From positions 1-60,814 of IMG/VR virus record IMGVR_UViG_3300032282_004007: 60,814 nucleotides of DNA; one strand, written 5' to 3'. Origin of the DNA: a virus. Each line of letters starts with the position of its first letter. The stretch's first letter is position 1. This document shows positions 17,377 through 52,979 of this stretch, piece after piece. The position numbers were made by a program, and so were the translations under genes. The notes below the pieces were generated by a model, which was not told the origin of the DNA, did not search any database, and saw nothing but the letters and a program-made list of their open reading frames with translations.

Positions 17377-18282
17377 ATGGCAGTAGGTTCATACGGAATA
17401 ATTAGACCAGCAGACGTTTCACCAGAAGATGTTGAAATACTGTACCACTATGTGGAAAATAGGTCAACAGATTCCACCCCAATATTAAAAAAATTAACAT
17501 CAACAGACATTTTAACCCCGGTATTTCATAATAGTAATACTGGAGGTTTAAACGGTACTGAAATATTGGGAGGAATGTACAACTTAAAATTATTAGCCGA
17601 CGATTTTACAGATTTAGGTATATATACGTTACATATTCGCCCAAAACAGATCAGAGCAACAATTACTGACTGCGGAATATTAGCAGCACTACCTTCTGTT
17701 AGGGGGTTAGTGATCGACTTAAACGATATCGCATCTGACGATAGAAACAAATTTATACCACAAGGTCTTGTTGGGTATAGAATCGAATATATTGACGATA
17801 ATAACAGAAAAGTACCTAATTTCTATAGATTAGTCACATCTTCTTTTTATTGTGAACCAATAATATCTAACCTAACAAATTCTTCACAGAAGTCAATTAG
17901 ATATAGATATACCGACACAACAAGTAATTTGGTGTTTTTGACGTTAACTCCGTCATCTGCGCCTTCAAATAGACCAAATAGTATACCTTTTATCGGTAAA
18001 CCGACACAATCGATCATTTTAACAAATACTTTCTTTAACCCAACAACAGTTGAGATAGAAATGGTTGAACATGACGCATCGACACTTGCACATGCATTAT
18101 ATGGTAATCAAACCAAAGCGATTTCTAGTGGAATATACACTGTTTACGGTGACAATAATAACATTTACAAACAATTCAACCTTTACGAAGTTAAAGATGA
18201 ATTTAATGAGACATTATATGAGGTTCGTGAAGAAAGAACTAACATAGATGAGACCTTAAACTTTGATGATATCACAAAATAA
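17377..18282 (+). CDS. Structural protein, unknown family
   Basis: The protein is 301 residues and starts MAVGSYGIIRPADVSPEDVE. Its sequence alternates beta segments (IYTLHIRPKQIRATITDCG, FIGKPTQSIILTNTFFNPT) and ends in an acidic helical tail (EVKDEFNETLYEVREERTN). It overlaps the giant gene downstream by one base (TAATG), so the two products are probably made in similar amounts and assembled together. A neck, tail-terminator or connector role would be a guess. Confidence 0.6.
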   Translation: MAVGSYGIIRPADVSPEDVEILYHYVENRSTDSTPILKKLTSTDILTPVFHNSNTGGLNGTEILGGMYNLKLLADDFTDLGIYTLHIRPKQIRATITDCGILAALPSVRGLVIDLNDIASDDRNKFIPQGLVGYRIEYIDDNNRKVPNFYRLVTSSFYCEPIISNLTNSSQKSIRYRYTDTTSNLVFLTLTPSSAPSNRPNSIPFIGKPTQSIILTNTFFNPTTVEIEMVEHDASTLAHALYGNQTKAISSGIYTVYGDNNNIYKQFNLYEVKDEFNETLYEVREERTNIDETLNFDDITK

Positions 18283-21200
18283 TGGCAAAAAGGAAAGTAC
18301 CAAGTCAGGCGGCATCGGGAAAAGAAACATTTTCAGATAGTTTAATCGGGAGTCAAATTACCGATGGAACTAGTCAACTGACTAATAGTGTATTTGCTGT
18401 TGATAAAGTGATTCCTCAAAAAGACGCTAAATCATTTAAAACAGCCCCATTCTCAGATTTTTTAACTTTAGATGATTTAAAAATTGAAACAGATTCTCCA
18501 ACTACAGTAGCACAATCTACAGGAGAAAAAAGACCAATTAAGTTTAATGACTCTAAAAATGATGCTAGCAAATCTTTATTTGGTTCATTAAGAGAAAGAT
18601 TTGCGGTATCTACTGGTAGAATTATAAAAAATTTTCCAGCGGTTTTTATGGTTGACCCAACGTCACCAATCGCATCGTCAATTTATTCAGCAGAAAATAT
18701 TTCATATGATGTTTTAACCGATAGAACAACATTCACACTACAAACATCAATAATTTATAACCCATTGGATATTTCTTTTATTGCTCCAGTAGTGACAAAA
18801 GAAAATAATGAAGAAAACCCAATAAGAAAATTCTACTCTTCTTATAAAAAATATGTTTTAGATGTAAACGATGAAACGTATCCAATTGTATCTTATACTG
18901 AACCAGACACCAATAACCAAATAACATTAAAAGTTATTGGTAAAGCATTTACTGGCACCTCATATACAAATTCATATATTGTTAGACCTAGTAATGGAGT
19001 TGTTGAAGAGTTTTATATCGGTTTAGATGATTTAGAACAAACATTATTAAATAGAGAAACCTATCCAAAATATAAAGCAGGGTTTCAAGTCCCTAAAGAT
19101 ACTTTAGGTGGCGGTAAAACCGAACTTATAACAGAATATGCCACCTGGCCAATATCTAAAGACGGTTGGAACATTAAAATAGTCGGAGTTGATTTTGAAA
19201 CATATCTTGATACAGTTAATTCTTTAGCGATTGAGATTGATGATTATAAATCAAATTTAATTGTTAGATTTTTAACAGCACCACAACTTTTTGAATTTGA
19301 TACCGAAGACCAGAAGATGAATAAAATCTTCCAACTTTATGGTCAAAGTTTTGATAGGGTAAAAAAATATATAGACAACATTGCTTACATGCGTAATGTG
19401 AGTTATGACACTATTAACAACCTACCAGATGTTTTTTTAAAAAATTTAGCAAATACGTTAGGTTTAAATACTGTTAATTTATTTGATCAAAAAACATTAG
19501 AAGAGCAATTATATAATTTAGGTGGGCAAACATATCAAGGTGTACCCATAGGCAAAACATTAGTTGATGCTGAAATAGAATTTTATAGAAGAATTTTAGT
19601 TAACCTTGCGCACATCTATAAATCAAAAGGAACTAGAAGTAGTTTAGAATTTTTCTTAAAATTCATCGGTGCCCCCGATCCAATGATTAAGATTGATGAG
19701 TTTGTGTATAATGTTACGTCAAGCATACCAACAGGTAGAATCGAAAGCGACATTAACGAAGTTATACAAGGAGGTAAAGTCACCAAAATATTAGAATTCA
19801 ATCCAACAACATTTTCGTATGATATTAATGAAATTGTTGGTGGCAATGCTTTTAATGAGAGAACAGATTTTCCAGTTGATACTACAACAGGATTACCATC
19901 AGCACCAACAACAAACCAAGATAACATATTTTTCCAAATGGGTGCTGGCTGGTATGAGCAAACGTTAGATCATAGAGCACACGATATATTGAACACACAA
20001 AGTTCTATTACAACTGGAAGAACAAAAACTTTAATAACAAAATCAAAACCATTCACATATGGTGAAGATTACTATGATATATATAGAACCATCCCTGGGC
20101 TTGATTATGGTTATGATTTAAGAAACGCTATTGATAATGTTAAAGGGCAAGTTGTTGATGATTTAGACACAGCAAGATTAGTTTTAAACAGAAAAAATAT
20201 AAATGTATTTGTTTCAACCGCAAAAGCGATTGATTATGACATATGGAAAAAATCACAAAACTTAGATTTAACGTTTGGAACATTACCAGTACAAACTGGT
20301 GTAACATACGCTCAATTTACACAAGACCTATTAAGTCAACAAATAAAAAATTCTCATACAATAAAATATAAGAAAAATTACATTGTATTAGAAGAAATTT
20401 TTAGAGAATACTATTCACATCCAGGGTTTACATCATATGATTTTATTGATGTTTATAATTTTGTTGATGTAATGAGTCCTTATTGGACAAATATCTTAGA
20501 TCAGATAATTCCAGCAACAACATTATGGTTGGGTGGTAATTTGATTGAAAACAATATTTTAGGTAGACCAAAATATCCATACAGATTCCCATGTCAACCT
20601 ACTGAGTTTGTGGATAATTTATATCCTGACTTTGAAACAACAATTGAAGAAGATTTAGAAACTATTTTAGGTGGAGAAGAAAATCTAAGAGGTTTAATTA
20701 AATTTAGCGGCATAACTTATTCATTAGTTATTGATATTGATGGTGTTGAATATACGGGATCAACAACAGTTGATTTATTTGGTGAAACATTATTTGACAC
20801 ATTTACACCTGGTGCTACATGTACAGATTTAACAACATCATCAACCTATGTACCATTAATATGTGAATACAAAGATTGGATAAGTCCAGATATATCAGCA
20901 ATAAAAATCCAATGGAAAAACGCGTTAGCCAATTTAGTTGATGAAATTAACACAACCTACACTGGTTATACCGAAGGTTGTATACCAACTTATGAACCAT
21001 ATAACGAAATAACATCTGGGGCGACTTGTACCGGGTACACGCCAATAATTTCTTATGAAATTTTTACAGATGTGGATGGTATTGAAAAAATTAAATTTTA
21101 TTCATATAAAAATGGATATAATGAATGTACAATAAAAGATTATATAGATTTCTTTTTCTTGGCCGATTATATCTATACTCCACCAACATGTGAATTAGAA

Positions 21201-24200
21201 GTTTACGCAACAGCACCATGTGATGTTTTTGAATCAGGTACTGAAAATTGTAGATTAAAAAGTGACGTTTATCTTAATATAAGTGGCGCAACAGGAAATG
21301 AAGACGATATTTGGGGTGTAAACATTTTCTATAATTGTGATGAGAATTACAATGACGGAATTTCCCCAGTACAAATACAAAGATCCGTAATGGACCCATG
21401 TGTTTTTATTGTTAAAGATGTTTATGAAGATGGTGATATTAACGGTAATCCAATAGATTTAATTATTACTGATGCAGCAAACTGTGAACAAAAATTAAAA
21501 ATAGAAGGATTACAAATAAAGATAGAACACGATCCATATCCGTTATCAACATCTGGACGTAGTCACACACAATTATTTGAACTATCATCATTAGATGGTT
21601 ATGGTAACACAGTTTCAGTTATTTCTGGGGTTACATATTGTGACACATATACCGGTTATACAATCACACCTAAAATTCAATATAGACAAACTTTTAATTA
21701 CGGAATAAAAAAAGGAACGTTTGTATTGAAAGCAAGCGGAAGCACCATTAACATAGATACTTGGATAGATGTTCAAGACGCTATATCATCAGGTGTGATA
21801 ACTGAAACTTTAATCGAGAATATTGCTAATGGTGATTATTTGTTATCGGCAGAATTTTTAAATTGTCCATTCCCAACAAATGATTTTAGAAATATACCAA
21901 TAAGTGGTTACTCTTTTGGTTACAATTATAAATTAATACAAATTAATAATATTGATTGTTTAGGTTCAATTAAAAAACATATCATTAATAATGAATTTGA
22001 AGTTTTACCAACAACAGAATTAAGAATATATAGAGATGGTAAATTTATTAGTGAGTATCCAGAGAATTTAATTATTAAACCAGATACACCTATTGAACCA
22101 TGTTGTGATGTAGATGAATCATATTTTAATAATCACGGCGATTATCTTTTAGATCAAACCGGTTTCCCAATCGAAGTTGAAACAGTTGAATTAGATTATT
22201 GTTCTAGAAGTATTTTTTACCATTTAAATTTCATTGGTACTGGAGATGTTGTTTTATTTAACGGAAATAGCGATTCTCAAATATTAATGTCGTTTACACA
22301 AAATAAATTTAATAATCTTGATTTTGAATTAGAACAATTTTATGCAAATGGTTCATGTGTAAATGATTATAACCCAAGAGAGTATACTGGAGAAACTTGT
22401 AATAATACACCAGTTGTTAGTTGCGGCACGCACCATAGTAATGCTACACCAACACCTACACCAACAATTACACCAACGATCACACCTACATTTACGATTA
22501 CACCAACGCAATCTATTACACCAACGCAATCAGTTACACCAACCTTAACAATTACCCAATCAGTTACACCAACCTTAACAATTACCCAATCAGTTACACC
22601 AACTGAAACAGTAACACCAACTATAACATTAACTCCAACTTTAACTATTACTCAATCGATTACTCCAACACAGTCGATTACTCCAACATATACTATAACA
22701 CCAACTATAACACCAACACTAACAATAACACCAACCATAACATTAACTCCGACCCAAACTATTACACCAACATTGACTATAACACAGTCAATTACACCTA
22801 CTCAAACCATTACTCCGACTTATACTATCACACCAACTAAAACAATAACACCAACTGTAACAATTACTCAGTCGATAACACCAACTCAAACAATAACACC
22901 AACATATACTTTAACTCCAACATTAACTGAGACAGTTACGTTAACGCCAACTCAAACTATTACTCCGACTTATACATTAACGCCAACCTTAACTATAACA
23001 CAGTCAATAACACCAACGGAAACGTTAACACCTACGTATACTAGCACACCAACACTAACTGAAACAGTTACTTTAACACCAACACAAACCATCACACCAA
23101 CATATACGATTACTCCGACTGTAACAGAAACAATTACACTTACTCCGACTCAAACTATTACACCTACTGAGACAGTTACACCAACGTATACTATTACTCC
23201 AACTATCACACCTACATACACATTAACACCTACACTAACACAAACAGTTACACCAAGTTCAACTGAAACACCAACAGTCACACCTACGTTAACACCAACA
23301 TTGACTATAACACAGTCAATTACTCCAACTCAAACTATTACCCCAACTGAAACGCTTACGCCAACTATTACGTCTACATATACAATCACACCAACATATA
23401 CAATTACTCCGACCCAAACTATTACACCAACAGTAACAGAAACAATTACATTAACACCAACACAAACTATTACTCCAACTGAAACACTTACGCCAACAGT
23501 AACGATTACACAATCTATTACGCCTACATTTACGATTACACCAACGCAATCTATTACACCAACATTGACCATAACTCAATCAATAACACCTACGCAGACC
23601 ATAACACCAACGGAAACATTAACACCAACGGTTACTATAACTCAATCTATTACACCGACTCAAACTATAACACCAACTGAGACCCTTACGCCAACTATAA
23701 CAATTACTCAATCAGTAACACCTACTGAAACATTAACACCGACTATTACACCAACATACACTATCACACCAACATTGACTATAACACAGTCGATTACACC
23801 AACTGAGACACTTACGCCAACTTATACATTAACCCCAACACTTACACCAACACAAACTATAACTCCGACTCAAACTATAACTCCAACCTTAACAATTACT
23901 CAATCGATAACCCCAACTGAAACATTAACACCGACAGTAACAATTACTCAATCGATAACCCCAACTGAAACATTAACACCGACAGTAACAATTACTCAAT
24001 CGATAACCCCAACTCAAACTATCACACCAACTTATACGGTTACACCAACTATCACTCCAACGTTAACGATCACTCAATCGATAACACCAACTATTACGAT
24101 AACGCCGACTTATACTATAACACCAACATTAACAATCACCCCGACCGTTACGGAAACACTTACACCAACTGTAACAGAAACACTAACGCCAACATTGACT

Positions 24201-26912
24201 ATAACTCAGTCAATTACACCAACCTTTACTATCACACCAACTCAAACAATTACACCTACCTATACGTTAACACCAACAGTAACAGAAACAGTTACGTTAA
24301 CACCTACGCAGACCATAACACCAACGGAAACATTAACACCAACGTTAACGATAACTCAATCTATCACACCTACACAAACCATTACCCCAACTGAAACGTT
24401 AACTCCAACATTGACCATAACTCAGTCAATCACACCTACACAAACCATTACTCCAACTTATACGTTAACGCCAACAGTTACAGAAACTGTTACGTTAACA
24501 CCTACACAAACTATTACACCTACTTATACTATAACACCTACGTACACCATTACTCCAACTATTACCCCAACTGAAACTCTTACACCTACATTAACACAAA
24601 CAGTAACACCAAGTTCAACTGAAACCCCAACCCCAACACCAACCATTACACCAACTGTAACAATAACACAATCTATTACTCCAACTCAAACTATTACACC
24701 AACTGAAACACTTACACCTACTGTCACTATTACTCAATCAGTAACACCAACATATACTATTACACCAACCCAAACTATTACACCAACACTTACTGAAACT
24801 GTTACGTTAACACCTACTCAAACTATTACTCCAACTGAAACGTTAACACCAACATTAACGATAACACAATCTATTACACCAACATTTACCCTAACACCTA
24901 CGCAAACAATAACACCAACATTAACAATTACTCAATCTATTACACCAACCCAAACTATAACTCCAACTTATACTATAACACCAACAGTAACGCCTACAGA
25001 AACGTTAACACCAACATTAACGATTACTCAATCCATTACACCAACCCAAACTATAACTCCGACATATACTATAACTCCAACTTATACTATAACACCGACA
25101 ATCACACCAACCGAAACGCTAACACCAACATTAACGATAACACAATCTATTACACCAACCCAAACTATTACCCCAACTCAAACCATTACCCCAACATTAA
25201 CGATAACACAATCTATTACACCAACCCAAACTATTACCCCAACATATACTATAACCCCTACCATTACACCAACATATACCATTACACCAACATATACCAT
25301 TACACCAACTCAAACTATCACACCAACAGTTACTGAAACAATAACATTAACACCAACCCAAACTATTACACCAACTTATACGTTAACCCCAACCATAACA
25401 CCAACTCAAACAATTACACCAACACAAACAATTACTCCAACTCAAACAATTACACCAACATTTACACTAACACCTACATATACGTTAACACCAACCGTAA
25501 CACCAACTTGTGATTGTCCTGCTGGATTCACATTGACATCTGATGGAAATAGTTGTTATAGAGTTTTAACAACTAGCCCAACAAGTGTTGCAAGTTTATA
25601 TGTTGGTGACGGCGGTTTCAACTCATCATATGGTCAATATGGTGTTAAAATTTATAACGTAAATGATTATAACACATCTGGCGGATCTGTAAGTGGAAAT
25701 TTAGCATTTTCAGGATTTACTAATGCTTATGACTCGTCTAGCACAACATCTGTTGAGGCATATTGGGCTAGCGTTATGAACGATAATAATGTTTGGGTTT
25801 CAGGAAACACATACTGGCCTGGTCCAGCATCTCCAAATTATCCAAATTATATTAGTTTATGTGCAACATTTACTTTATCAACAACTAAGACATATTATAT
25901 TGGTGTTGCGGGAGACAACGATATTACAATTAAATTAAATTCTGTTACATTAGTTAACCAACCAGACAACCAACCAGTAGATAACTTCAGATTCTATCAC
26001 ATATATCCTGTAGTTTTACAAGCAGGACCAAATATTATTGAAATAGAAAACTGGAACAGAAGTAGTGTTGGTTCGTTCGTTGCTGAAATTTATGATAACA
26101 CATTATCACAACTTACATCAGCAACAAATAGTGCAATGGTAACTAAAGTATTCAGCACAGGTGATTATTTACCTGGAGGACCGCATGCTGGTGAACAATA
26201 CTGTAGTAACTATAGTTGTCCAGCAACATATAGTTTAGATTTCTCAAACCCAAGTATTCCAGTTTGTAAAAAAATTGAATATGTTGATTGCGGAGTTACA
26301 CCTACACCTACACCAACAGTTACTATAACACAATCTATCACACCTACGTTTACGTTAACTCCAACTCAAACAATCACACCAACCATAACATTAACACCTA
26401 CGTATACATTAACGCCAACTCAAACCATTACTCCAACACAAACAATTACGCCAACATATACTATTACTCCAACTCAAACAATCACACCAACCATAACATT
26501 AACACCTACGTATACGGTTACATCTTTCTATCAAAACTGTGGTTATGGTTGTCAAGCGTATGAAACAGACCAATCTTGTACGCCTTGTGATCCTGCTGGA
26601 ACACAAATCGATATTACTGGTTGCGCTGAATTCACAGGAGGAAATAGCGTAACAATGACCTTATTTAGTTCAGTGAACCTCTCAACAAATGTGACCGTAA
26701 ATTTTGTTATTGACGGTGATTTGGGTACACATATTGAAAGCAGTTTAGTAATATATAGCGGTACATCATATGCTTCTAATAATGTTGGCTTACACTACAA
26801 TTACGAAATAATTGGTAATGCTTACATCACCTCAGTAAGCCCAGCGTCTTATGGTAGTGAATCATATGTTCCTGGTACAGTAGCATATGGCTCAGGATGT
26901 ACTCCACCATAA
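18282..26912 (+). CDS. Giant tail/adhesin protein with about 1,000 residues of Thr-Pro repeats
   Basis: This 2,876-residue protein has four parts. Residues about 1-830 look like a baseplate-associated module. Residues about 326-470 contain RFLTAPQLFEFDTEDQKM and YKSKGTRSSLEFFLKFIGAP, a pattern reminiscent of the tail protein I family that links baseplate to fibres. Residues about 830-1390 are beta-rich with paired cysteines. Residues about 1390-2408 are nearly pure Thr-Pro repeats of the form ITPTQT/LTPTET with ITQS interruptions. Then come a Cys-capped beta sandwich (CDCPAGFTLT, then YYIGVAGDNDITIKLN and FRFYHIYPVVLQAGPNIIEI), a second short Thr-Pro stretch (about 2670-2748) and a final Cys-rich domain. 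The repeat should form a long, stiff, extended stalk. No charged residue except Glu and one Lys occurs in it. Confidence 0.8.
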   Translation: MAKRKVPSQAASGKETFSDSLIGSQITDGTSQLTNSVFAVDKVIPQKDAKSFKTAPFSDFLTLDDLKIETDSPTTVAQSTGEKRPIKFNDSKNDASKSLFGSLRERFAVSTGRIIKNFPAVFMVDPTSPIASSIYSAENISYDVLTDRTTFTLQTSIIYNPLDISFIAPVVTKENNEENPIRKFYSSYKKYVLDVNDETYPIVSYTEPDTNNQITLKVIGKAFTGTSYTNSYIVRPSNGVVEEFYIGLDDLEQTLLNRETYPKYKAGFQVPKDTLGGGKTELITEYATWPISKDGWNIKIVGVDFETYLDTVNSLAIEIDDYKSNLIVRFLTAPQLFEFDTEDQKMNKIFQLYGQSFDRVKKYIDNIAYMRNVSYDTINNLPDVFLKNLANTLGLNTVNLFDQKTLEEQLYNLGGQTYQGVPIGKTLVDAEIEFYRRILVNLAHIYKSKGTRSSLEFFLKFIGAPDPMIKIDEFVYNVTSSIPTGRIESDINEVIQGGKVTKILEFNPTTFSYDINEIVGGNAFNERTDFPVDTTTGLPSAPTTNQDNIFFQMGAGWYEQTLDHRAHDILNTQSSITTGRTKTLITKSKPFTYGEDYYDIYRTIPGLDYGYDLRNAIDNVKGQVVDDLDTARLVLNRKNINVFVSTAKAIDYDIWKKSQNLDLTFGTLPVQTGVTYAQFTQDLLSQQIKNSHTIKYKKNYIVLEEIFREYYSHPGFTSYDFIDVYNFVDVMSPYWTNILDQIIPATTLWLGGNLIENNILGRPKYPYRFPCQPTEFVDNLYPDFETTIEEDLETILGGEENLRGLIKFSGITYSLVIDIDGVEYTGSTTVDLFGETLFDTFTPGATCTDLTTSSTYVPLICEYKDWISPDISAIKIQWKNALANLVDEINTTYTGYTEGCIPTYEPYNEITSGATCTGYTPIISYEIFTDVDGIEKIKFYSYKNGYNECTIKDYIDFFFLADYIYTPPTCELEVYATAPCDVFESGTENCRLKSDVYLNISGATGNEDDIWGVNIFYNCDENYNDGISPVQIQRSVMDPCVFIVKDVYEDGDINGNPIDLIITDAANCEQKLKIEGLQIKIEHDPYPLSTSGRSHTQLFELSSLDGYGNTVSVISGVTYCDTYTGYTITPKIQYRQTFNYGIKKGTFVLKASGSTINIDTWIDVQDAISSGVITETLIENIANGDYLLSAEFLNCPFPTNDFRNIPISGYSFGYNYKLIQINNIDCLGSIKKHIINNEFEVLPTTELRIYRDGKFISEYPENLIIKPDTPIEPCCDVDESYFNNHGDYLLDQTGFPIEVETVELDYCSRSIFYHLNFIGTGDVVLFNGNSDSQILMSFTQNKFNNLDFELEQFYANGSCVNDYNPREYTGETCNNTPVVSCGTHHSNATPTPTPTITPTITPTFTITPTQSITPTQSVTPTLTITQSVTPTLTITQSVTPTETVTPTITLTPTLTITQSITPTQSITPTYTITPTITPTLTITPTITLTPTQTITPTLTITQSITPTQTITPTYTITPTKTITPTVTITQSITPTQTITPTYTLTPTLTETVTLTPTQTITPTYTLTPTLTITQSITPTETLTPTYTSTPTLTETVTLTPTQTITPTYTITPTVTETITLTPTQTITPTETVTPTYTITPTITPTYTLTPTLTQTVTPSSTETPTVTPTLTPTLTITQSITPTQTITPTETLTPTITSTYTITPTYTITPTQTITPTVTETITLTPTQTITPTETLTPTVTITQSITPTFTITPTQSITPTLTITQSITPTQTITPTETLTPTVTITQSITPTQTITPTETLTPTITITQSVTPTETLTPTITPTYTITPTLTITQSITPTETLTPTYTLTPTLTPTQTITPTQTITPTLTITQSITPTETLTPTVTITQSITPTETLTPTVTITQSITPTQTITPTYTVTPTITPTLTITQSITPTITITPTYTITPTLTITPTVTETLTPTVTETLTPTLTITQSITPTFTITPTQTITPTYTLTPTVTETVTLTPTQTITPTETLTPTLTITQSITPTQTITPTETLTPTLTITQSITPTQTITPTYTLTPTVTETVTLTPTQTITPTYTITPTYTITPTITPTETLTPTLTQTVTPSSTETPTPTPTITPTVTITQSITPTQTITPTETLTPTVTITQSVTPTYTITPTQTITPTLTETVTLTPTQTITPTETLTPTLTITQSITPTFTLTPTQTITPTLTITQSITPTQTITPTYTITPTVTPTETLTPTLTITQSITPTQTITPTYTITPTYTITPTITPTETLTPTLTITQSITPTQTITPTQTITPTLTITQSITPTQTITPTYTITPTITPTYTITPTYTITPTQTITPTVTETITLTPTQTITPTYTLTPTITPTQTITPTQTITPTQTITPTFTLTPTYTLTPTVTPTCDCPAGFTLTSDGNSCYRVLTTSPTSVASLYVGDGGFNSSYGQYGVKIYNVNDYNTSGGSVSGNLAFSGFTNAYDSSSTTSVEAYWASVMNDNNVWVSGNTYWPGPASPNYPNYISLCATFTLSTTKTYYIGVAGDNDITIKLNSVTLVNQPDNQPVDNFRFYHIYPVVLQAGPNIIEIENWNRSSVGSFVAEIYDNTLSQLTSATNSAMVTKVFSTGDYLPGGPHAGEQYCSNYSCPATYSLDFSNPSIPVCKKIEYVDCGVTPTPTPTVTITQSITPTFTLTPTQTITPTITLTPTYTLTPTQTITPTQTITPTYTITPTQTITPTITLTPTYTVTSFYQNCGYGCQAYETDQSCTPCDPAGTQIDITGCAEFTGGNSVTMTLFSSVNLSTNVTVNFVIDGDLGTHIESSLVIYSGTSYASNNVGLHYNYEIIGNAYITSVSPASYGSESYVPGTVAYGSGCTPP
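22442..25509 (+). repeat. Thr-Pro coding repeat, about 3 kb
   Basis: Degenerate tandem units of about 18 bases (six residues, consensus x-T-P-T-x-T) fill this stretch, with a recurrent larger unit TLTITQSITPTQTITPT. Codon choice varies freely between copies (aca/acc/acg/act for Thr), so the amino-acid pattern is kept by selection or by conversion between diverged units, not by recent simple slippage. Some longer nucleotide blocks are repeated exactly, for example around 23910-24010. Confidence 0.9.
26293..26525 (+). repeat. Second Thr-Pro coding repeat in the giant gene
   Basis: The same six-residue Thr-Pro units return between the Cys-capped beta sandwich and the C-terminal domain. A block reading attccaactcaaacaatcac recurs within it and in the larger array. 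Confidence 0.85.
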
Positions 26913-43623: not shown

Positions 43624-44430
43624 ATGAAGAAAACCGCACCAGTTCAAAAAACTGACGAATTAAATTACTACATAAAGGATTTGAAAAAAATCCCAGTGAT
43701 TGACCCCAAAAGAGAGTATGAGGTTTTTGTACTTCTTAAGGATAAAAAACTAAGTAAAGAAGTCCGACAGAAGTTAACGGATGAAATGGTTGTAGGTAAT
43801 TTACGTTTTGTTATATCTGTTGCGAAAATGTATCAAAATCAAGGATTAGATCTTTTGGATCTAATATCTGAAGGAAACATTGGTTTAATAAAAGCAATTG
43901 AAAGATTTGATATTACATCTGGTTTTAAATTTATCTCGTATGCTGTTTGGTGGGTTAAACAATCTATTATGGCTGCGTTAAATGAATATGCTAGAACAAT
44001 ACGCATACCGTCTAATGTTTTACAAGATGCACAAAAGCAAAAGAAGATAGATGAAAATGATGACAATTATTTAATTGAGTACAACGACACATCTTTGATT
44101 GGCATCCCATCAACTGTAGATTTATTTAAAGAAATTAATGAAGATGGCGATACTTTAATTGAAGTAATTAATAACCCTAACGCTGAAGATCCTATGTCAG
44201 CATTAAATAATTTAGACGAGGTTAAAAAACGAATGAAATACATGTTATCCATATTGGATGACAGAGAAAAAACAATAATTGAAGGTTATTTTGGTTTATG
44301 TGGCTCCGAACGCAATTTAGATGACCTAGGAGAAGAATTTGGTTGCACTAAAGAAAGAATTAGACAACTAAAAGACAAGGCCCTAAAGAAACTAAGGAAC
44401 GAGAGTTTTGGGCTATTAAACTATTTATAA
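43624..44430 (+). CDS. Sigma-70 family factor (phage-encoded)
   Basis: The 268-residue protein contains region 1.2 (DELNYYIKDLKKIPVIDPKR), region 2 with the core-binding and -10 recognition segments (DLISEGNIGLIKAIERFDIT, GFKFISYAVWWVKQSIMAAL, EYARTIRIPSN), a region 3 linker, and region 4 with a helix-turn-helix (LDDLGEEFGCTKERIRQLKD). It is closest in style to Bacteroidota primary sigma factors, not to T4 gp55, which is much more reduced. It likely directs host RNA polymerase to phage promoters, the TATTTAT class being the best candidate. The membrane protein gene follows 5 bases later. Confidence 0.9.
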   Translation: MKKTAPVQKTDELNYYIKDLKKIPVIDPKREYEVFVLLKDKKLSKEVRQKLTDEMVVGNLRFVISVAKMYQNQGLDLLDLISEGNIGLIKAIERFDITSGFKFISYAVWWVKQSIMAALNEYARTIRIPSNVLQDAQKQKKIDENDDNYLIEYNDTSLIGIPSTVDLFKEINEDGDTLIEVINNPNAEDPMSALNNLDEVKKRMKYMLSILDDREKTIIEGYFGLCGSERNLDDLGEEFGCTKERIRQLKDKALKKLRNESFGLLNYL

Positions 44431-44435
44431 TCTAT

Positions 44436-45872
44436 ATGAATAAAAATTGGTTAAAATACTTAGTAGCGATTTCCGCTATTATGATTGCAGGTAGCGCGGC
44501 TTACTTTTCCGTAACAGGGTTAGGTGTTTTATTTAGCGGCGCAGCAATCGCTGTAATGATCATGGCTGGTTCATTAGAGTTTGCTAAGTTAGTTACTGCA
44601 ACATATCTTAAACAAGAATGGAAGACGATTAGCGGTGTTAATAAGTGGTATCTAACATCGGCTGTGGTAATTTTAATGGCGATCACATCTGCAGGTATTT
44701 TTGGTTATCTATCAAATGCATTCCAACAACAAAATATTAAATTAGAACAAGTACAAAGAGAAATTGATGTTTGGAATAATAAAATAACCTATGCCAATCA
44801 ACAAATCACCACATTACAAAGTCAACAAAAAGATTTATCAACCACTCAAAATACTTTAATAACAAAAGGTAATGTTAATAGTAGATTATTACGTTCAGTT
44901 GATAATCGTGATAAACAATCTAATACCGTTAATAAAAAAATAAACTCTTTACAAGATTCTATTGTTGCTTATAATGGTAAGATTAATGATGTTAAAAACG
45001 CTAACATTGATATCGAAAGAGAAGTTGGTGGATTTAGATTTGTTGCTGAAGCGTTTGGTGTTGAATTAAAATCGGTTGTTAAGTTTTTTATATTTTTAAT
45101 TGTAATAGTATTTGACCCATTGGCGGTTGCCTTGGTAATTTCATTTAATCAGTTAGTAATGACAAAAAGAAAAGACGAAGAAGAAATAAATGAAAAAGAA
45201 GAAGTTGATGTAAAAGATATCGTCCACGAATCTGCTAGATTAAAACTATCAGAAGAAGATTTGAAAAAATTAGAAGAAATATTATTAAATCCACCCCCAC
45301 CAAACGAAGCATTAAAAAATGCCGCTAAAAAATATGAAGAAGAAATTGTAGAAAAGAAATCAATTTTCCCTAAAGAGGTTGAATATGATGAGGAGTATAC
45401 TCGCCCTGTCTACACTAATGAATTTAGTGATGAAAAAGTAAGACAAAGAGAGTTATTAGCGGAAATTATAAAAAACGACGAAGAGTTAGGTTTATATAAT
45501 GAACCATTTGATAACCCAATGATTAAGGAAGAACCAAAAATAACCGAAGATAATATTTCAGATTTGGATGTAACATTAATGGATGAATCTGACAAAGATT
45601 GGGAAAGTTTTCAACAGCATTGGATTAAACAAACAGAACAAGAACTTTCCACTATAGAACCAACTGAAGAAGAAGAAAGTAGAAATTTTTCTAATATAAC
45701 CCCAGAATCAACGAATTTTTTCCAAAAAGATGAATATATTCAATCATTATCTGATGAAGAGGTTAATGAAATGGTTTTAGATGAATGGGAAAGAAATTTA
45801 GATATGGAAGAGGAAGAAGAGCAAACCGGAATAGATGATCAAACATCTGATGCCGAAAAAAAAAAGAACTAG
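44436..45872 (+). CDS. Four-helix membrane protein with coiled coil (zero-frame product)
   Basis: The 478-residue protein has hydrophobic helices at about residues 4-27, 29-50, 71-93 and 212-236. A Gln/Asn-rich coiled coil lies between the third and fourth (about 95-190), and a long acidic cytoplasmic-type tail runs to residue 478. The zero frame stops at TAG 45870-45872 after a run of ten A. Across that run the heptamer A AAA AAG is in the correct phase for a -1 slip, and the -1 frame is open for 117 more codons. The extended product would be 594 residues. I see no family name; the arrangement suggests a membrane stress or envelope-binding protein. Confidence 0.75.
   Translation: MNKNWLKYLVAISAIMIAGSAAYFSVTGLGVLFSGAAIAVMIMAGSLEFAKLVTATYLKQEWKTISGVNKWYLTSAVVILMAITSAGIFGYLSNAFQQQNIKLEQVQREIDVWNNKITYANQQITTLQSQQKDLSTTQNTLITKGNVNSRLLRSVDNRDKQSNTVNKKINSLQDSIVAYNGKINDVKNANIDIEREVGGFRFVAEAFGVELKSVVKFFIFLIVIVFDPLAVALVISFNQLVMTKRKDEEEINEKEEVDVKDIVHESARLKLSEEDLKKLEEILLNPPPPNEALKNAAKKYEEEIVEKKSIFPKEVEYDEEYTRPVYTNEFSDEKVRQRELLAEIIKNDEELGLYNEPFDNPMIKEEPKITEDNISDLDVTLMDESDKDWESFQQHWIKQTEQELSTIEPTEEEESRNFSNITPESTNFFQKDEYIQSLSDEEVNEMVLDEWERNLDMEEEEEQTGIDDQTSDAEKKKN
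45860..45866 (+). promoter_or_regulatory. Slippery heptamer A AAA AAG (-1 frameshift site candidate)
   Basis: Zero-frame codons are AAA (45861-45863) and AAG (45864-45866), preceded by A at 45860, the same heptamer used by Escherichia coli dnaX. It lies 3 bases before the zero-frame stop codon. I see no strong stimulatory hairpin downstream; only a 4-bp CTAT/ATAG stem. Confidence 0.55.
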
Positions 45873-46219
45873 AATTCCTATCAGAAGAAATAGTTTCAAC
45901 CCCTACTAATACACCAACAGAAACACCCACACCAACACCAACTATAACTCCAACAGAAACTGTTACGCCTACCCCTACTAACACACCAACAGAAACTGTT
46001 ACACCAACACCAACAATAACACCAACCGATCTTCAAGAAGTGGATTCATTGTATCTAGAAGACGGAGAATTACCAGTTGAATTAAAAGAAGAAGAAACAC
46101 CAGCCGAGATTACATATGATGAAGATGGGGTTAATAATGCGTTTATTCCAATCATAAGGCCAACAAGTAAAATTATTCAGAGAAATGTTAGCAATTCGAA
46201 ACGTAGAGGTTTTAGATAA
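45866..46219 (+). CDS. -1 frame continuation with Thr-Pro repeats (frameshift product)
   Basis: In the -1 frame the sequence continues [11 protein letters not shown], then about 40 residues of Thr-Pro repeat ([20 protein letters not shown] and similar). An acidic segment ([18 protein letters not shown]) and a basic end ([12 protein letters not shown]) follow before TAA 46217-46219. The -1 frame has no ATG or GTG between the slip site and the repeat. The region would otherwise be a 312-base gap. The Thr-Pro pattern is the same as in the tail adhesins. The end overlaps the next gene start by 35 bases. A homopolymer sequencing error (11 A instead of 10) would give the same fusion without slippage. 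Confidence 0.65.
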
Positions 46220-46811
46220 CATAAAATTCAAATCCAAAAAGACAAAGGTAAAAAAGAAGCAAATTCTTCTATTCGACACACATAGAAGGGTAAATGACTA
46301 TTTTATGATGTTAAAACATAGAAAAAATGGTAATTACGCCGATATACCACATTTTTGTGTTGATAAAATAGGTAACATATATAAAATATTAGATATTGAT
46401 CGATCATCCAATACCTTTAACTCACCTAAAATTGATAATACCCAGATAAAAATAGCAATAGAAAACCTGGGCTGGTTAAACAAGAATACCATTACAGGTA
46501 TCTACATGAATTGGATAAATGACCCATACAGAGGTGATCCGTACATCAAAAGTTGGAGAAACCATTACTACTGGGATAACTACACTGAACCTCAAATAAG
46601 TTCCTTAATTGACCTAGTTATGACACTATGTGTTGAACATAATATAAACTATTATGCAGTTCCTTCATCTGGTTTAATTGAAAACGCAGAAAAGTTCCTC
46701 GGGATTGTCAGTAAATCCAACTTTTCTGATATTTATACAGATATAAACCCGTCATTTAATTTTAATATTTTTGAAGATTATGTCAAACAAATCGAAATGG
46801 GGCTACGATGA
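46185..46811 (+). CDS. Amidase-like protein (amidase_2/PGRP-type fold)
   Basis: The 208-residue protein has ILLFDTHRRVNDYFMMLKHR, then PHFCVDKIGNIYKILDIDR and IKIAIENLGWL, a layout like N-acetylmuramoyl-L-alanine amidase domains (T7 lysozyme, PGRP), where a first His, HF-DxxG-x-I-Y and IGIE-type strands recur. The expected zinc ligands are only partly clear: His in DTHRR, His in PHF. It may be a lysis or virion amidase, or a degenerate version. It starts within the 3' end of the frameshift extension. Confidence 0.55.
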   Translation: MLAIRNVEVLDNIKFKSKKTKVKKKQILLFDTHRRVNDYFMMLKHRKNGNYADIPHFCVDKIGNIYKILDIDRSSNTFNSPKIDNTQIKIAIENLGWLNKNTITGIYMNWINDPYRGDPYIKSWRNHYYWDNYTEPQISSLIDLVMTLCVEHNINYYAVPSSGLIENAEKFLGIVSKSNFSDIYTDINPSFNFNIFEDYVKQIEMGLR

Positions 46812-52454: not shown

Positions 52455-52979
52455 ATGTTAAACAATTGGTACGTGTTAAAAGTAACACCAGGAAAAGAAA
52501 GACAAATGAGCGATCACTTCAATACCTTAATATCATTAGGTAGAATGGAGTACGTTACTAGGTTTATATGCCCAACAGAAAGGGAATTAATAACAACAAA
52601 AAAGAAGAAAACATATAGAGACAGAGTGTTATATAATGGTTACCTCTATTTTGAAGCCCAAAGCAAATTGAATGATGAAGAATTGAAAGAAATCTCAGTT
52701 TTTCCTTCAGTTATGTCCATGTTAGGGGATAAAAGACCTAAATTGATGGGACCTAATGATATTCAAAAGATAATCAAAGACGATAAATTAGATTTACACA
52801 GAGAAAACAAATTAGTGACATTTATGGTTGGTGAAGAGGTAACATTAACGGATGGCCCCTTTACTTCATTTGTTGGAACAATAACAGATATTAAAGTCGA
52901 TAAGGTCACATTAAATGTTAGGATTTTCGGTAGATTTACGTCAGTAACTATTGATATTGAACACATAAAAAAAACATAG
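52455..52979 (+). CDS. NusG-like transcription elongation factor
   Basis: The 174-residue protein has the full NusG layout. The N-terminal NGN domain opens with NNWYVLKVTPGKERQMSDHF and contains KKTYRDRVLYNGYLYFEAQS. The C-terminal KOW domain reads VGEEVTLTDGPFTSFVGTIT, almost the family consensus (V-DGPF-x-x-F-x-G-x-I), followed by strands ending in DIEHIKKT. NusG binds RNA polymerase across the cleft and affects pausing, termination and translation coupling; specialised paralogues such as RfaH act on chosen operons. With the phage sigma factor this suggests phage control of both initiation and elongation. Confidence 0.88.
   Translation: MLNNWYVLKVTPGKERQMSDHFNTLISLGRMEYVTRFICPTERELITTKKKKTYRDRVLYNGYLYFEAQSKLNDEELKEISVFPSVMSMLGDKRPKLMGPNDIQKIIKDDKLDLHRENKLVTFMVGEEVTLTDGPFTSFVGTITDIKVDKVTLNVRIFGRFTSVTIDIEHIKKT

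Follow-up and report, generated by a model that had tools for sequence, protein, structure and literature searches.

Programmed slippage on poly-A runs has been documented in insertion sequences, in secretion systems and in a few bacterial genes (PMC5009743, PMC1088944), and both the bacterial use of such slippage to obtain two products and the extension of phage proteins by -1 shifts are already known. In Shigella flexneri, slippage in spa13 adds an extension of 112 aa, which overlaps spa32, and has a strong effect on spa32 expression (PMC5009743). In the case of Citrobacter rodentium tssM1 and Yersinia pseudotuberculosis tssM3, the product of slippage is the longer protein for one species but the shorter for the other, while both length variants are needed and the default form may be either short or long (PMC4256274). 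Among phages, the lambda G/GT tail chaperone and T7 gene 10A/10B represent minor, C-terminally extended proteins that result from -1 shifting close to the 3' end of the gene.

The locus described here is located in a 60,814-nt stretch of viral DNA, designated the window, and comprises a membrane-protein gene, a tail reading frame in the -1 frame and an adjoining amidase gene (Table 1). It shares with spa13/spa32 a C-terminal extension of similar size, with its end overlapping the beginning of the following gene, although spa13/spa32 is part of a bacterial type III secretion locus for which transcriptional slippage is proven, whereas in this phage module the mechanism is one that we infer. The resemblance to tssM1/tssM3 resides in an A-run (A11 in that case) ahead of a premature stop, in a membrane-protein gene with two length variants (PMC4256274). 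In contrast, the long tssM form requires a shift to the +1 frame, with the stop 28 nt past the run, while the phage family employs the -1 frame with a stop 0-4 codons on; furthermore, tssM comprises two cases only, whereas the phage tract is family-wide. The window gene, like those of lambda and T7, would give rise to an extended product through a -1 shift near its 3' end, yet those encode virion or assembly proteins, whereas it encodes a membrane protein, adjoins an amidase gene and carries a long A tract without any recognised stimulator. Finally, Thermus thermophilus dnaX possesses an A9 run and forms two products by transcriptional slippage (PMC5009743), which is a likeness, but in dnaX slippage produces the shorter product, unlike the slippage proposed for the phage module. 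No report of this module, or of family-wide poly-A slippage in a dsDNA phage, was found in the literature searched.

Table 1. Positions of the module and its neighbouring features in the window.
Feature	Position	Strand	Basis
Sigma-70-type factor gene, conserved upstream neighbour	43624..44430	+	Pfam Sigma70_r2 and r4
Zero-frame membrane-protein gene, 478 aa	44436..45872	+	ORF; relatives in other viral contigs
Linker segment similar to TacA/DUF1778 (toxin-binding C-terminus), residues ~258-302	45207..45341	+	Pfam, PDB matches
Putative A10 slippage tract, codon phase GAA AAA AAA AAG	45856..45865	+	Sequence; A9-A11 kept in 65/72 distinct loci
-1-frame tail, 117 codons + TAA; Thr-Pro repeats, LYLE motif, basic C-terminus	45866..46219	+	Selection; relatives' tails
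Zero-frame stop TAG, 4 nt past tract	45870..45872	+	Stop 0-4 codons past tract in 57/57 split loci
Amidase_2-like gene, ATG 35 nt inside tail (46185-46219)	46185..46811	+	Pfam PF01510

The split-frame junction and its conservation

The zero frame of the 44436 gene ends with GCC GAA AAA AAA AAG AAC TAG, in which A AAA AAG occupies the zero phase at 45860-45866, while the open stretch of the -1 frame spans 45866-46216 and is closed by TAA at 46217-46219. A -1 shift at this point results in a product of 477 + 117 = 594 residues, and the insertion of one A in the mRNA leads to a 594-residue protein identical to that of a ribosomal -1 shift, so that the protein alone cannot separate the two mechanisms. 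An earlier note, made from the sequence of this DNA, had described the junction, and re-reading of the window sequence confirmed its gene coordinates, the phase of the heptamer and the product lengths of 478 and 594 residues. The statement that the tail frame is devoid of a start codon holds true for ATG, but an in-frame GTG (46040) and TTG (46049) are present; initiation at these codons would yield just 59 or 56 residues, respectively, omitting the Thr-Pro repeats, which extend from ~45902 to 46030.

Related viral contigs were searched with the membrane domain and the amidase as queries, and the census, taken by amidase presence, comprised 131 amidase-bearing loci with 72 distinct upstream regions. 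In 65 of these 72 loci a pure A9-A11 run precedes the amidase ATG by 116-431 nt, with A10 phase 1, A11 phase 1, A10 phase 2 and A9 phase 2 as the observed combinations of run length and codon phase. Relative to the gene upstream, 57 of the 65 tract loci (the split loci) have the tail in the -1 frame and six (L006, L132, L169, L187, L177 and L182) have it in the zero frame, with the tract still present, while two (L127 and L122) have it in the +1 frame. The constancy of the -1 relation across A9, A10 and A11 runs and two codon phases suggests that the flanking sequences have adjusted to maintain it. For example, the nearest relatives, L001, L002 and L003 (82%, 58% and 51% identity, respectively), possess a ten-A run in the codon phase of the window, a zero-frame stop one or two codons on, and -1 tails of ~90-113 codons that end at the amidase gene. 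The seven loci without a run encode a short continuous protein ending at the amidase start; six of these seven could be placed in the amidase tree, where they form a distant branch. Clustering of the 71 placed amidases at 80% identity resulted in 36 groups, of which 30 include a run, and tract, phase and tail recur together in about 25-30 such groups.

The proposal of the earlier note that two products arise through a shift into the -1 frame is thereby sustained, as the relatives retain both tract and split frames, instead of having a continuous frame without a slippery site. Its emphasis on A AAA AAG is not, since this heptamer is present in only eight of the 57 split loci and it is the uninterrupted A9-A11 run that is kept. 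The zero-frame stop is found 0-1 codon past the run in 52 of the 57 split loci and at most four codons past it in all 57, compared to a stop density of 0.067 per codon deeper inside the tails. The split-frame arrangement does not stem from a sequencing artefact.

In the -1 frame, the tail evolves under purifying selection. Across 17 independent tail pairs, which are 73-96% identical at the DNA level and were compared with the amidase overlap excluded, the dN/dS in this frame is 0.30 with zero stops, whereas the same tails read in the two other frames return values of 1.15 and 0.76 and contain 130+ stops; the corresponding value for the zero-frame linker upstream of the tract is 0.35. The observed tails have a median length of 80 codons, while at random points of homologous genes the -1 frame was open for at least 50 codons in 0.09% of 2,280 trials. 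Synonymous codon use predicts, if anything, more A-runs of at least nine nucleotides for the window's own genes than are found there. For the residues EKK(K/N) under the window's codon usage, however, a pure run is expected by chance about half the time per lineage, and the argument for a slippage tract therefore rests on the number of lineages. The conservation of tract, stop and tail, combined with purifying selection on the -1 tail, indicates that the split-frame design is programmed. The stop pattern of the +1 frame in the in-frame loci hints at bidirectional slippage, although these numbers are small and were not relied on.

Some relatives depart from the common layout. The L177 and L182 genes each carry two separate A9/A10 runs, with the tail in the zero frame for both. 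The L038 gene (4001-5739) encodes the same membrane anchor with no adjoining amidase, and possesses an A9 run followed by a stop one codon on, after which 294 codons of coiled coil can be read in the -1 frame, i.e., the same device with a different tail. Membrane-protein relatives without tail or amidase are found in L099 and L105, where an A10 run is in frame, 126 codons before the end of the gene, and where a -1 shift would terminate after one codon.

Proposed polymerase slippage and competing explanations

It is most likely that, as the A10 tract is copied, RNA polymerase slips and a fraction of the mRNAs gains one A. Unslipped mRNA would encode the 478-aa membrane protein ending just past the tract, while slipped mRNA would encode the 594-aa form with its 117-residue C-terminal tail. 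The tail frame runs into the amidase start, and slipped mRNAs would thus bring ribosomes there, such that a single tract would set the ratio of the two membrane-protein forms as well as part of the amidase output. We regard this explanation as a whole, i.e., a programmed slippage site, most likely acted upon by RNA polymerase, with coupling to the amidase, as reasonably probable from the comparative sequence data, and the polymerase as a likelier agent than the ribosome.

The tract is never shorter than A9 in the tract-bearing loci, and A9 is the length from which many bacterial genomes begin to avoid such runs (PMC1088944). Slippage of RNA polymerase on A/T runs is dominated by single-base insertions, equivalent to a shift into the -1 frame, and climbs steeply with run length (PMC5574713). 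Polymerase slippage is favoured by the minimum of nine A's, by this dominance of insertions, by the low frequency of A AAA AAG and by the lack of a common stimulator: no common downstream stem-loop was found among 51 loci (mean z of -0.7; the modelling covered folds without pseudoknots), and no consistent SD-like stimulator was found upstream of the tract in the split loci. It is also favoured by the retention of the tract in the six in-frame loci, which is comparable to tssM1 and tssM3 with their opposite defaults. In ten of the 51 loci the downstream sequence folds fairly stably (z < -2), which counts against the polymerase reading.

Ribosomal -1 frameshifting on A AAA AAA or A AAA AAN without strong stimulators, which would make the same proteins from unaltered mRNA, is less likely, though the strongest of the alternatives. 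It predicts a -1 tail equally well, as is seen in the 57 split loci, and in the window A AAA AAG is in exact phase with the stop one codon on, a stop placement that suits the ribosome too. Some ribosomal shifts need no stimulators. Furthermore, -1 ribosomal shifts are common in phages, lambda G/GT being an example (PMC5009743), and long AAA runs also disturb ribosomes (PMC4363877). A AAA AAA is contained in any A9-A11 run in the phases seen. However, a heptamer of 7 nt would suffice for the ribosome, yet pure A9-A11 runs are kept while the third codon is free to vary (in the split loci AAT 23, AAA 22, AAG 8 and AAC 4). The absence of a common stimulatory structure or SD-like element in the modelled loci argues in the same direction, as does the presence of SD-like leaders in just four of 46 window genes. 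In the absence of a shared stimulator, polymerase slippage would appear at least as likely as a ribosomal -1 shift. Transcription factors can alter polymerase slippage, and the window encodes a NusG-like protein (52455-52979; Pfam PF02357 and KOW).

Phase variation, in which the length of the A-run changes during DNA replication and the tail is switched on or off within a population, is improbable. A homopolymer is indeed present at the junction, and L127 (A10) and L128 (A11), which are 98.8% identical over 2.1 kb, differ by a one-base gap at the tract, reflecting either real variation or a sequencing error. Nevertheless, the frames are divided 57:6:2, which is not a mixture, no near-identical phage pair differs in having the tail on versus off, and an identical A10 is retained in one locus across 12 contigs (L206 and its duplicates), while the in-frame loci differ by their flanks and not by tract length.

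The possibility that the tail is a separate gene, started at an internal GTG or TTG or by re-initiation with no need for slippage, is more remote still: in-frame candidates do exist in the window and, as a TTG, in L003, but no conserved start is found near the tract, the window starts would lose half of the tail, the tail is fused in frame in six lineages, and the tract would be left unexplained. The loss of one A from an ordinary continuous 594-codon gene through sequencing or assembly error, which the earlier note had offered as its alternative on account of the error-prone ten-A homopolymer and of which L127 may be a case, is close to negligible, given that the relatives keep the tract and split frames, that independent contigs from many samples display the same -1 relation at different tract lengths and phases, that stops cluster 0-1 codon past the tract, and that data of the same type read continuous A10 genes in the six in-frame loci.

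The amidase and the virus group

The PF01510 profile matches the window amidase with 24.8 bits, just under the cutoff of 26, and that of the relative L131 with 35.4 bits, above the cutoff. Gene order around the module is kept, with the sigma gene present at 71 and the gene after the amidase at all 72 of the distinct amidase loci. In all 57 split loci the tail stop is positioned between -24 and +35 nt from the amidase ATG, while the zero-frame stop precedes the amidase start by 105-420 nt. Since the tail always terminates near the amidase start, as in Shigella spa13/spa32, slippage probably also couples translation of the amidase. A role in cell-envelope change or in lysis control is a guess prompted by the adjoining amidase. 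The membrane domain has distant relatives in a Pelagibacter phage and in a Flavobacterium phage, where a glucosaminidase, or a chitinase and a holin, are encoded nearby.

The module is carried by a large and so far uncultured group of bacterial viruses, with related contigs reaching 335 kb. No amidase relative was detected among 50,697 GenBank phage records, and the clade is therefore without a deposited isolate there; similarly, two scans of bacterial and archaeal genomes returned no relatives and hence no host link. The G+C content of 32% and the near-absence of SD leaders would fit a Bacteroidota host, which is a weak hint. Within the clade, a single slippage site exists in about 30 naturally diverged forms, some of them natural reversals with the tail in frame, and these allow one to ask what a slippage site requires and what the two-product ratio serves. 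Automatic annotation truncates these membrane proteins and loses their tails clade-wide.

Membrane anchors, linker and tail

The window protein is predicted to consist of three hydrophobic helices, a long coiled coil, a fourth hydrophobic helix and an acidic linker, and a model of residues 1-300 is all-helical, with low confidence (pLDDT 66). Several matches to this region reflect general resemblance: an Rz-like spanin identity (phrog_739, E=0.008) was rejected as coiled-coil resemblance only, PDB sequence matches to EnvC, GCN4 and keratin represent coiled-coil or long-helix resemblance, and matches to AhlC/AhlB-type folds represent long-helix resemblance of a low-confidence model; no function was inferred from any of these. 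The linker (residues 260-301) matches PF08681 above the Pfam cutoff (E=2e-6) and solved TacA-type antitoxins among PDB sequences (E=1e-4), while a Foldseek search returned the TacT3-bound TacA3 peptide (54% identity across 28 residues), for which the E-value was, however, 4.9. The PF08681 alignment covers profile positions 38-79 of 80 only, and the protein is not itself a TacA antitoxin, as the N-terminal ribbon-helix-helix half is absent with a membrane domain in its place. The linker segment may thus represent a binding motif that is TacA-like in its binding. A strict regular expression for the motif proved too narrow for census use.

About 50 of the 72 loci encode a different four-helix membrane domain (consensus ...WYGISNP...), for which a fold search returned nothing significant. 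The TacA-like segment is also found in relatives with this other anchor, and profile comparison aligned the linker segments of the two anchor families with 62% identity and a probability of 95%. Homology of the two membrane domains, both of which have four hydrophobic helices, was not detected by hhalign, which aligned the linker only. The two anchors alternate along the amidase tree, even between near-identical amidases (L155 versus L141/L145), which shows that the anchor has been exchanged while linker, tract, tail and amidase were retained. The near-identical amidases and tails of L155, L141 and L145 on different anchors point to a recent exchange. It is quite possible, and tentatively proposed, that this represents a clade-wide phage module in which a polymerase-slippage tract would jointly set the ratio of membrane forms and amidase translation, with the anchor swapped between unrelated-looking families and tract, tail and amidase kept.

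Many tails have in common a segment similar to LYWEKDDxNPNQVIYDLENNKVIIP, and most are closed by a basic RNVxNxxRRRxxR sequence, which is encoded partly in the amidase overlap and is thus constrained by two frames at once. The earlier note had also viewed the tail as a Thr-Pro repeat stalk on a membrane protein. The repeats are indeed present in the window tail, but by a simple count Thr/Ser-Pro-rich tails account for 12 of 65, and in L006 the repeats are located in the protein body, upstream of the run; a Thr-Pro stalk was therefore dropped as the purpose of the tail. Moreover, the topology places linker and tail probably on the cytoplasmic side, making a surface stalk unlikely. Elsewhere in the window, Thr-Pro repeats are numerous in a very long tail protein encoded at 18282-26912 (2876 codons); they resemble those of the -1 tail at the DNA level, and recombination between genes may spread them.
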